Shown here one piece after another: positions 22,803 to 25,670 of a stretch of DNA of 31,094 nt. The DNA comes from a virus. The stretch lies in the IMG/VR virus record IMGVR_UViG_3300037264_006078, positions 1 through 31,094 of that record. The stretch is one strand, 5' to 3'. Position 1 is the first letter of the stretch, and each line of letters begins with the position of its first letter. The position numbers were made by a program, and so were the translations under genes. Below the pieces are notes generated by a model, which saw nothing but the letters and a program-made list of their open reading frames with translations, did no database searches and was not told where the DNA came from.

Positions 22803-23969
22803 CTACTCACCCGGCACGCTCGCAACCGATTGCGGAGGTACTCGATCCGACTCGGCCACGACGAGGTCGAGAGCCTTGGGCATGACGACGCACAGACGCC
22901 GCCGCTCGGCGTCCTCGATGAACAGCGGACCTGCGTCGTCCACGAAGCCCATCCGCATCTCGGACCCAGAGAACACCGAGAGACCCGATGCCAGTCGCCT
23001 AGCAGAGATCCCGACCAGACGGCTCACATCGTGCTCGGCGTGGATGAACTCGATGCCCTCCCCTGCTCGACCCTTCCAGGAGACGCACACCCAACCAGGT
23101 CGGAGTTCCAGGAGTGCGCAGTCGTCCTCGTCTCCGATGACCGAGTCGAGACGCTTCAGCGCGGCCACCAACTCCCGGGTGTCGCACCGGACATCCTGGA
23201 TCAGGTTCCTCGAGACGTGGGCCTCGTAGGGAGGGAAGTTCTCCGTGGTGATGGAGGACCGCATGGTCACCCCCGGAAGAGCCACGGAGAAGGATGTCTC
23301 GTCGGCCCCTAACTGCACGGGGCCGTCGTGACCCTTCAACACCTTGTCTAGGAAGCCCACCGTGGAGGAGGGGACCAAGACCCTGACAGGCAGGGCCTCG
23401 CAGGGTTCTACCCGGGACAAGGCCAGACACTTGCCGTCGGTCGCCACCAGACGGAGCTTGCCGTCCACGACGTGGAACAGGACCCCCTGAAGGGAGAACC
23501 TCCTGTGTCCCTCTGCCGAGGAGGCGAAGGCGACGCAGGACAAGGCACCCCGAAGAGAGCTGGCCGGAGTCTCGGCGAACTTCGGGAGGACGTAGCCCAG
23601 CGGGAGACCGAACTCCGGAGGGTTGTCTCCAGACCTGATGCCCGGGATCTTGGCCGTGCTCCCACCTCCGACGGACTCCAAGACCAGGACGTCCTTGGGG
23701 GTCAGTCGTAGGGTCAAGAGACCGCGGAAACCACGACACATCTGCGTGAACTTCGCGGCTGGGAGACCGACCCCCCCTGCTTCTACGTCCGTCACGGGAC
23801 AGGTAGTCCTGATGGACGTGGACCCCGAAGACCCGAGGACGGATGCCTCCTCCCCGCGCACGGAGATCCAGACGTCCGTCAAGGACTGCCGCGGGTCGGA
23901 CTTGGGGGACACCTGGGCCGCCGTGGAGACCGCGGCCCACAGGTCATCACCGTCGCACGCGAACCTCAC
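22803..23969 (-). CDS. dnaN: DNA polymerase III beta subunit (sliding clamp)
   Basis: 388 aa, close to the 366 aa of E. coli DnaN. GTG 23969 overlaps the upstream TGA (GTGA) and has GGAGG at 5-nt spacing, giving the N-terminus MRFACDGDDLWAAVSTAAQV, like cellular clamps. An in-frame GTG 11 codons earlier is less likely. The segments RRFSLQGVLFHVVDGKLRLV and ATDGKCLALSRVE form the family signature in the second domain, LPAAKF appears in the first, and the end VVMPK corresponds to the usual C-terminal MP motif but with ~30 extra residues after it. The clamp tethers DNA polymerase for processive synthesis. A phage-borne copy suggests its own replisome; no polymerase is in the window. Confidence 0.9.
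   Translation of the reverse strand: MRFACDGDDLWAAVSTAAQVSPKSDPRQSLTDVWISVRGEEASVLGSSGSTSIRTTCPVTDVEAGGVGLPAAKFTQMCRGFRGLLTLRLTPKDVLVLESVGGGSTAKIPGIRSGDNPPEFGLPLGYVLPKFAETPASSLRGALSCVAFASSAEGHRRFSLQGVLFHVVDGKLRLVATDGKCLALSRVEPCEALPVRVLVPSSTVGFLDKVLKGHDGPVQLGADETSFSVALPGVTMRSSITTENFPPYEAHVSRNLIQDVRCDTRELVAALKRLDSVIGDEDDCALLELRPGWVCVSWKGRAGEGIEFIHAEHDVSRLVGISARRLASGLSVFSGSEMRMGFVDDAGPLFIEDAERRRLCVVMPKALDLVVAESDRVPPQSVASVPGE
22821..22834. repeat. Palindromic motif CGCAACCGATTGCG at clamp 3' end
   Basis: Stem CGCAA/TTGCG around CCGA, within the last codons of the clamp gene and 15 bp from its stop. It matches the core of the inverted repeats at 10535 and 14040. Confidence 0.6.
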
Positions 23970-24280
23970 GCCGACCTCCCCCGCTCGCGCTTGTGACCCC
24001 ACGGCGAGAGCCCCTTCGCCACGTTCGACTCGAAGCGAGCTACCCTCTCCTCTCGAGCCTCGAGATCATCACCTTGTAGGTAGACGTAGAGTCGGAGGAA
24101 GAACTTGTACAGCGTCGTCTCGTCGTGACGAATGAACTCTCTCTTCTTCCATCTGAAGATACAGCGCTTGTCGAGGTCGATGACCTTGGCCAGGGACTCC
24201 ACCCCACCCGCCTTTACCAGAGCTTCGGCCAACATCGCCTCGATGTTGACCAAGTCCAGATCATCTCGGTAGCGCCTCAC
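23966..24280 (-). CDS. Small helix-turn-helix-like protein
   Basis: 104 aa. Residues ~16-48 (LAEALVKAGGVESLAKVIDL then DKRCIFRWKKREFI) fit a helix-turn-helix: a short helix, a turn after GGV, and a recognition-like helix CIFRWKK similar to Cro/YdaS-type regulators. The rest is helical and charged (VYLQGDDLEAREERVARFES). It overlaps the clamp and the glycosylase-like gene by 4 nt each (GTGA), so the three are translationally coupled. It might be a DNA-binding regulator of the cassette or a clamp partner. The HTH call is by eye and moderate. Confidence 0.68.
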   Translation of the reverse strand: MRRYRDDLDLVNIEAMLAEALVKAGGVESLAKVIDLDKRCIFRWKKREFIRHDETTLYKFFLRLYVYLQGDDLEAREERVARFESNVAKGLSPWGHKRERGRSA

Positions 24281-24774
24281 ACCACCTGCCCCCCTCTAGC
24301 CACGGCAGCCACGTCCGACCAGAAGGATCGCGCCCTGGACCTGTTCTCCTCGTCGTTCCACCACCTGCTGATCCTCGAAGGATGGGGGGCCACACGAGTC
24401 CTCCAAGGGAGAGCAGGGATCTCCGCGAACCAAAGCACCCGAGGTCGCCCGAAGGCTCGCTCCACTCGTCTGCCCAGCAGGACCACGAGGTCTACCTTCA
24501 ACTGTAGACCCCTGTCGATCAGCCTTCCAGCACTCTCCGCGGCTGCTCGCGCGTCGAACAGGTCACCTCTCCCCGAAGGAGCCCTGCCTGGCCACGACTC
24601 CAGCAGGTTCGTGCGACGGAAGAGTCGCGCCCACTCGCCGGGGAAGCCGACACCAGCTAGGTCGGCCAGGGCGGGACTCATCAGGCTCAGGTGTAGCTGC
24701 TGAGATGTGTGGAGTTCCCTGCTGGGGGCCTCCCCCACCAACAAGACCTTGGCCAAGGGCGGACCGTAGATCAC
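24277..24774 (-). CDS. Uracil-DNA-glycosylase-like superfamily protein
   Basis: 165 aa from GTG 24774, which overlaps the methyltransferase stop (GTGA). Residues 10-18 (VLLVGEAPS) resemble UDG motif A (GEAPG). KVDLVVLLGRRVERAFG forms the middle strand-helix, and PHPSRISRWWND (130-141) resembles the HPS motif B plus a WWN segment seen in a phage subgroup. True UDGs remove uracil from DNA. Here the catalytic acid after motif A is not obvious (GEAPSREL), so activity on uracil is uncertain and the protein could act on another base or only bind DNA. It stands between a methyltransferase and the clamp, fitting a DNA repair or modification role. A longer start at 24834 would overlap the upstream gene by 64 nt. 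Confidence 0.72.
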   Translation of the reverse strand: MIYGPPLAKVLLVGEAPSRELHTSQQLHLSLMSPALADLAGVGFPGEWARLFRRTNLLESWPGRAPSGRGDLFDARAAAESAGRLIDRGLQLKVDLVVLLGRRVERAFGRPRVLWFAEIPALPWRTRVAPHPSRISRWWNDEENRSRARSFWSDVAAVARGGQVV

Positions 24775-25670
24775 CCGGTGATGTTCCGCCGCGAGATCTC
24801 GACCCACTCGGGATCCAGCTCGAAGGCTACGCATCGTCTACCCAACACCCCGCACGCCGCGAAGACTGGCCCCGAACCCGAAAAGGGATCCAGCACGACC
24901 GCACCCGGGTCGCTCCAGATTCGTAGCATCTCCTCGAACATGGCCCGAGGCTTCATGGCCTGATGTCGACGAGTCCCCTTCGGGACCTGGGGGACAGGGT
25001 AAGAGAAGATGAGGTCCTCGTAGGGCTTGTCCTTGCTCTTGTTGAAGACCCAAGGAGCACCCTTCTTCACCGCCCAGACGCCATCCTCGCAGCGCTGCAC
25101 GGAAGATCGCTCGATGTTGCGCGGGAAGGGGTTCTGTTTTTCGTAGTGGAACCGGCGCTTGGGTTCACACCCGAGGCTATCCAGAACTCGAGCGATGGAG
25201 CCGAGGTTCTTCCAGTCGTTGAAGATGGCGATGTTGGCTCCCCTCTTGAGCTTGGGCACGACGAGCCTCAGCCATCTCTCCTGGTCGAACCCGCCGTCCC
25301 AGGAGAACTCGATCCCCGCCCGCCCGATGGTGTGGAAGTTGTTCTTCCTGGTGACGTTGTAGGGGGGATCCGTCAGCAGCAGGTCAACCGACTCATCGGG
25401 GAGCAATCGAATGAGGTCCAGAGCATCTCCGCAGTAGACACCGGTTTCCAGCGTGGAGATACGAAGGTGGTCGTCCGGAAGAGCCGAATCCCAAAAGACG
25501 GAGTCCTTGGGAGTCGCTACCCCAGAGGATTCAGGGTGGGCACCTTCGAAGCGCACGAAGACGAGCTGCGAAGATGGAGAGATGGATGTGATGACACCCC
25601 ACTCCCGGTTCCCGACACCATCCACGTACACGACACGACGGCCGACGTCCCCTGGACCAGGTTCGATCAC
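24771..25670 (-). CDS. Site-specific DNA methyltransferase, beta class (adenine N6 type)
   Basis: 299 aa from GTG 25670 with GGAGG 4 nt upstream. The catalytic motif DPPY (101-104, in LLLTDPPYNVTRKNN) precedes the AdoMet motif DPFSGSG (261-267) and CVAFELDPEW, the beta-class order typical of N6-adenine methyltransferases. Residues ~1-62 (GDVGRRVVYVDGVGNREWGV, QLVFVRFEG) look like a small SH3/KOW-type barrel placed before the catalytic domain, uncommon for these enzymes and perhaps a DNA- or protein-binding module. Modification would protect phage DNA from restriction or regulate expression. No cognate nuclease is present, so it is a solitary methyltransferase. Confidence 0.9.
   Translation of the reverse strand: MIEPGPGDVGRRVVYVDGVGNREWGVITSISPSSQLVFVRFEGAHPESSGVATPKDSVFWDSALPDDHLRISTLETGVYCGDALDLIRLLPDESVDLLLTDPPYNVTRKNNFHTIGRAGIEFSWDGGFDQERWLRLVVPKLKRGANIAIFNDWKNLGSIARVLDSLGCEPKRRFHYEKQNPFPRNIERSSVQRCEDGVWAVKKGAPWVFNKSKDKPYEDLIFSYPVPQVPKGTRRHQAMKPRAMFEEMLRIWSDPGAVVLDPFSGSGPVFAACGVLGRRCVAFELDPEWVEISRRNITG

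Follow-up and report, generated by a model that had tools for sequence, protein, structure and literature searches.

A clade of UDG-superfamily glycosylases beside phage DNA-modification genes, and its coupling to a methyltransferase and a sliding clamp in one phage

Why should a phage join a DNA glycosylase to a DNA methyltransferase and a sliding clamp? Such a cassette of four genes lies on the minus strand of a 31,094-base stretch of DNA with 64% GC (hereafter the window), which is an entire virus record and probably a fragment. Leftward virion genes for a portal, a virion structural protein, a tail sheath, and a tail tape-measure-like protein occupy the left part of the window, so the phage is contractile-tailed. 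The portal gene is downstream of the cassette on the same strand. The four open reading frames were confirmed, as was a second methyltransferase gene (MT2) next to them, and the GC1/2/3 profile is that of coding DNA for all five proteins. The features of the region are as follows.

24771-25670, minus strand: MT1, a DpnA-like N6/N4 methyltransferase
24771-24774, minus strand: GTGA stop/start overlap of MT1 and the glycosylase, exact, 4 bases
24277-24774, minus strand: UDG-superfamily glycosylase, 165 aa, GTG start
24277-24280, minus strand: GTGA stop/start overlap of the glycosylase and the HTH-like protein, exact, 4 bases
23966-24280, minus strand: 104-aa protein, possibly helix-turn-helix, with weak HTH resemblance
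23966-23969, minus strand: GTGA stop/start overlap of the HTH-like protein and the clamp, exact, 4 bases
22803-23969, minus strand: DnaN/beta-type sliding clamp, 388 aa
21459-22769, minus strand: MT2, type II-like second DNA methyltransferase, separated from the clamp by 33 bases

A first, sequence-only reading had noticed that the four genes are joined by three GTGA overlaps, and these are present at 24774-24771, 24280-24277, and 23969-23966. Of the leftward genes in the window, 24 pairs are adjacent. Four of these pairs overlap by 4 bases, and three of the four are the consecutive joins of the cassette; this clustering is more than chance. Overlaps of 4 or 1 bases are nevertheless common in related phage loci, being present in 149 of the 388 other same-strand gene pairs that lie close together. 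The overlaps by themselves are therefore unremarkable, and production of the four proteins in fixed proportion, as had been proposed, is something we infer rather than read from the gene layout.

The glycosylase matches the UDG family PF03167 (3e-8, 34.2 bits against a curated cut-off of 24.3) and, in PHROGs, phrog_12275 (9e-16), which has no annotated function. Its AlphaFold2 model, built with 14 sequences, has a pLDDT of 89.5 and a pTM of 0.86 and shows the UDG fold, the best Foldseek matches in the PDB being UdgX (8e-8), human TDG (2e-6), and the family-4 Thermus UDG (3e-6). The TDG matches include complexes with 5hmU. Because the N-termini of the relatives are about ten residues ahead of the GEAP motif, the GTG at 24774 fits better as a start than the upstream ATG. 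In an alignment of 75 rows, His131 and Ser133 are found in all 74 rows having a residue there, and Asn56, which aligns with the pocket Asn of family 4, is found in 71 of 72 aligned members. Since this Asn and this His are conserved, the protein is likely an active glycosylase.

Like family 4 UDG (Thermus UDG, 1ui0/1ui1) and UdgX, the window glycosylase has the PF03167 fold, the GEAP motif, the pocket Asn, and the HPS motif, with Foldseek E-values of 4e-6 to 8e-8 to these structures. The clade differs from them in being shorter (about 145-165 aa) and in its own HPSG..WWND signature, and the identity is only 17-20% over the fold. With family-4-type proteins from the same phage set as the alignment reference, including L020:9246-10412, the 4Fe-4S cysteines of family 4, which that protein has, were absent from the clade, and the active-site aromatic position was mostly Leu. 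The glycosylase accordingly belongs to a separate clade of the UDG superfamily, outside family 4.

Single-sequence searches of IMG/VR with the glycosylase, the clamp, or MT1 returned essentially no close relatives, and relatives of the glycosylase were reached by alignment-based searches only. These scans gave 91 glycosylase loci in 74 clusters at 75% identity, the window included. No copy was found on plasmids, and the bacterial genomes searched yielded only two contigs of one MAG. Neighborhood enrichment was calculated by a family search of the whole records against random placement of genes. Of the 22 mapped records with a C5-cytosine methyltransferase, 19 have it no more than 1.5 kb from the glycosylase (expected 2.6, p<=5e-5; this and all further p-values treat the IMG/VR records as independent though they share ancestry). 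Eleven of these genes are directly upstream on the same strand and eight are downstream and convergent, and translation confirmed the SPPC and ENV motifs of the C5-methyltransferases. TAGT glycosyltransferases are found at the same distance in 13 of the 19 mapped records with one (expected 1.4, p<=5e-5), 11 of them upstream on the strand of the glycosylase. C5-methyltransferase and TAGT almost exclude each other, with one shared record among 50 (p 0.008), and each was seen in 11 of 57 groups after clustering at 50%.

Fourteen records have CmoA-like genes, each together with a C5-methyltransferase; in 11 of them the gene is within 1.5 kb of the glycosylase (expected 1.9). Their matches are all below the curated cut-off of the model (best E 1.5e-48, weakest about 3e-13), and part of them may come from SAM-dependent enzymes of another kind. 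Asparagine-synthetase-like genes were found in 10 records. The combination of SPPC-type C5-methyltransferase, CmoA-like, and asparagine-synthetase-like genes beside many relatives resembles the CmoX/CmoA/CmoY clusters and points to 5-carboxymethylcytosine pathways (PMC12783734). The differences are that PMC12783734 does not mention a glycosylase and that the window has no recognized Cmo genes. The PF01555 methyltransferases showed no enrichment (1 of 14 within 1.5 kb), and for about half of the relatives no modification gene was recognized nearby. A search for TET/JBP in the relatives gave none in 50 records, and the control was equally silent, making this search uninformative.

Gene fusions were found as well. 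L044:4924-6435 is one 503-aa reading frame with fused TAGT and glycosylase domains, and L041:5206-6459 (= L020:6206-7459) joins an asparagine-synthetase-like ligase domain (Pfam) and the glycosylase (tblastn) in one frame. Phage S-B43 matched just the ligase part of the latter. A candidate TAGT-glycosylase fusion in L092 was rejected, as its coordinates place the two domains in different frames. The phage group of YuA and M6 also has the glycosylase, and M6 carries 5-NedU.

The link of the clade to modification genes, which recurs in unrelated phages, is the strongest result of this analysis, and no report of it was found in the literature searched. That literature did not mention the cassette's combination of genes either, and it was fair to call the combination unfamiliar. 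The interpretation given in the first reading held in part. A DNA marking unit with a glycosylase is well supported: relatives adjoin C5-methyltransferase, TAGT, CmoA-like, and asparagine-synthetase-like genes far beyond random placement, and a clamp and an adenine-type methyltransferase recur among them. The particular row of four genes did not hold, as described below. For the other suggestion, protection against uracil-based host systems, the analysis turned up nothing in either direction.

We tentatively favor, at somewhat less than an even chance, a glycosylase linked to replication that clears modified phage DNA of uracil-type bases, with the cassette as part of a phage modification and replication module. 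The glycosylase would flip out and hydrolyze such bases in the phage's own DNA. Its substrates would be uracil or 5-substituted uracils coming from deaminated cytosine or modified cytosine, or from faulty modification, and it would serve as a quality-control partner of the modifying enzymes. C5-methyltransferases can themselves promote the deamination of cytosine. Because the glycosylase stands beside enzymes that modify cytosine or thymine, removing deaminated or misprocessed bases from the phage's own DNA would be the most economical role. A known pairing of this kind is vsr with dcm, where the gene of a repair enzyme overlaps or adjoins that of a C5-methyltransferase. Both vsr/dcm and this cassette pair a repair enzyme with a methyltransferase; Vsr is an endonuclease of another fold, whereas here the partner is a UDG-superfamily protein.

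The substrate class is suggested by the pocket. In UDGs an Asn reads the edge of uracil, and Brig1, which excises the cytosine-type base glucosylated hmC, has Glu at this position (PMC11078745). The Asn of the present clade thus favors uracil-type rather than cytosine-type substrates. Brig1 and Brig3 (PMC11078745, PMC13160076), likened here by description, are also UDG-superfamily enzymes handling modified phage DNA, but they are bacterial defense genes.

Uracil would equally suit the fold and pocket of an ordinary phage uracil-DNA glycosylase acting on dU incorporated in replication, and nearness to modification genes would then come from a shared early nucleotide and replication region. In some phages the neighbors are indeed a PolA-like polymerase (read by eye), ribonucleotide reductase, DnaB, and a clamp. 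However, the modification genes are adjacent or fused to the glycosylase in many records, often with overlapping frames, which is more specific than a common early region, and we regard this explanation as unlikely. The tight pairing with very different modifying enzymes is also what would be expected of a protect/attack pair similar to restriction-modification, in which the glycosylase discriminates self from non-self by base excision, attacking unmodified DNA of the host or rival phages while the modifying enzymes protect the phage's own. Anti-phage roles are known in the UDG superfamily (Brig1, PMC11078745; Brig3, PMC13160076), and restriction glycosylases exist as well (PMC10273834). Against this improbable alternative, a companion nuclease is absent, the Asn/His pocket resembles that of uracil-type glycosylases rather than one suited to normal bases, freshly synthesized phage DNA would be left exposed, and the PADLOC models gave no match to the glycosylase. 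The missing PADLOC match also led us to reject an anti-phage defense role for it.

How the favored reading, a quality-control glycosylase tied to replication, applies to this phage depends on its partners, which would be one or two N6A/N4C-type methyltransferases. MT1 matches PF01555 (5e-26) and phrog_67 (2e-46), and its nearest PDB structure is the DpnA-type adenine methyltransferase 5hfj (E 2e-38, residues 78-296). A DPPY motif, read from the sequence, precedes the SAM-binding motif, and together with the PF01555 match this makes MT1 a beta-class N6-adenine/N4-cytosine DNA methyltransferase, which falls in a widespread phage group. For MT2, a type II methyltransferase model of PADLOC aligns over nearly the full length of the protein (2e-161), PF01555 also matches (7e-14), and motif IV, TSPPF, suggests N4-cytosine specificity. 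Among the PADLOC matches listed, both proteins matched methyltransferase-type models only, besides single weak BREX/mads-type matches. No C5-methyltransferase (PF00145), TAGT, or CmoA was recognized among the window proteins searched, and the argument from pyrimidine deamination therefore fits this phage least.

The clamp would tie modification and repair to newly replicated DNA. Its domains 1 and 2 are above the Pfam cut-offs (PF00712 1e-7 and PF02767 1e-10), and it matches phrog_947 (2e-39) and PDB clamps (9e-16). Domain 3 has no Pfam match; TIGR00663 spans residues 1-364, below its cut-off, and there is a C-terminal extension. In E. coli numbering, the pocket keeps L155, T172, G174, L177, P242, V360, M362, and P363 and is changed at R176, R246, V247, N320, Y323, and M364. 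The only clamp-binding-like peptide (QL[SD]LF or QLxLxL) in the partners is QLHLSL in the glycosylase, which is inside a conserved family segment and absent from the clamp-bearing loci L051 and L065; we judged it unlikely to be a clamp-binding motif. Clamps in small-gene operons are also known from Paracoccus phage Psul1 and Agrobacterium phage Rivra, but a glycosylase is not annotated beside those. Searches with the 104-aa protein in Pfam, PHROGs, NCBIfam, the PDB, and the phage records gave nothing above cut-off. Its HTH resemblance is weak (PF13022, E 0.04) and its single-sequence AlphaFold model has a pLDDT of 60; it is possibly a helix-turn-helix DNA-binding protein.

The sequence-only reading had staked its proposal beforehand on a conserved four-gene neighborhood, and this was not borne out. 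The exact order has no second example among the relatives found. The closest relative of the glycosylase, with 44-48% identity (L006/L033), is part of a polymerase operon for replication, and a clamp, a C5-methyltransferase, a PF01555 methyltransferase, and a TAGT are all missing from its 33-kb record. A DnaN clamp is present in seven of 73 records of relatives, always on the strand of the glycosylase, and within 5 kb of it in four of the seven (expected 1.2, p 0.015). In L051 and L065 the genes run glycosylase, MT-A70 adenine methyltransferase, clamp, and DNA-binding-type protein; the kinds of genes are similar to those of the window, but the order and the methyltransferase family are different. 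The clamps of L051 and L065 are 50% identical, so these two loci are related to each other. Their DNA-binding-type proteins have no detectable homology to the 104-aa protein. Seven of 50 records have a clamp, and six of these seven have an adenine/N4-type methyltransferase, compared with 13 of the 43 without a clamp (p 0.009; p 0.016 for records of at least 33 kb). This co-occurrence is suggestive of a link among the glycosylase records, with few clamp records (n=7) behind it.

These results bear on whether the four genes came together by chance in a phage operon dense with genes and lack a joint function. Such an assembly would agree with the unique gene order, the HTH-like protein that lacks relatives, the frequency of overlaps in phages, and the membership of MT1 in a widespread group. 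It is at odds with the similar kinds of genes that L051 and L065, and less tightly L087, bring together, and with the joint enrichment of clamp and adenine-type methyltransferase, and we consider it the least probable of the explanations.

In a broader version of the favored reading, the clade would be a standard component of hypermodification systems (5-carboxymethylcytosine, TAGT-linked, and thymidine-hypermodified), where it edits bases that are modified or half-modified. This phage and some others would couple it with an adenine methyltransferase and a dedicated clamp that deliver marking and editing at the replication fork. We think this version rather doubtful as a whole, and the clamp-directed unit within it is what we hypothesize from the cassette. 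Phage DNA hypermodification is an active field, and how heavily modified phage DNA is kept free of deaminated or half-finished bases was not addressed in the literature searched. A glycosylase family that accompanies modifying enzymes of many kinds offers a concrete candidate, open to testing, that could perform editing or repair or act as a base-excision weapon. As roughly half of the relatives are beside genes without recognized modifying function, the glycosylase could also mark modification clusters that have gone unrecognized.

Several individual proteins and gene rows deserve mention. The N-terminal extension of MT1 (residues 1-77, window 25440-25670) has no family match and is possibly a small beta-rich domain. 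The ligase-glycosylase fusion of L041/L020 sits between a C5-methyltransferase and a CmoA-like gene. The same L020 phage has, besides this small glycosylase, a family-4-type UDG that carries a fused 3'-5' exonuclease domain (L020:9246-10412). L087:4241-8261 (IMGVR_UViG_3300045116_000113) is a row of SPPC-type C5-methyltransferase, glycosylase, CmoA-like protein, DAHP synthase (PF00793, 1e-74), and chorismate mutase (PF01817, 4e-13), and this phage may make for itself the prephenate used in Cx-SAM synthesis. ParB-like proteins, weak and below cut-off, are in the TAGT and glycosylase clusters at L022:4350-5309 and L025:4715-5491; ParB-domain proteins have been reported close to CmoX (PMC12783734). 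Finally, L065:1912-5544 encodes a 1210-aa protein in which a TAGT glycosyltransferase domain is combined with a family A DNA polymerase domain.
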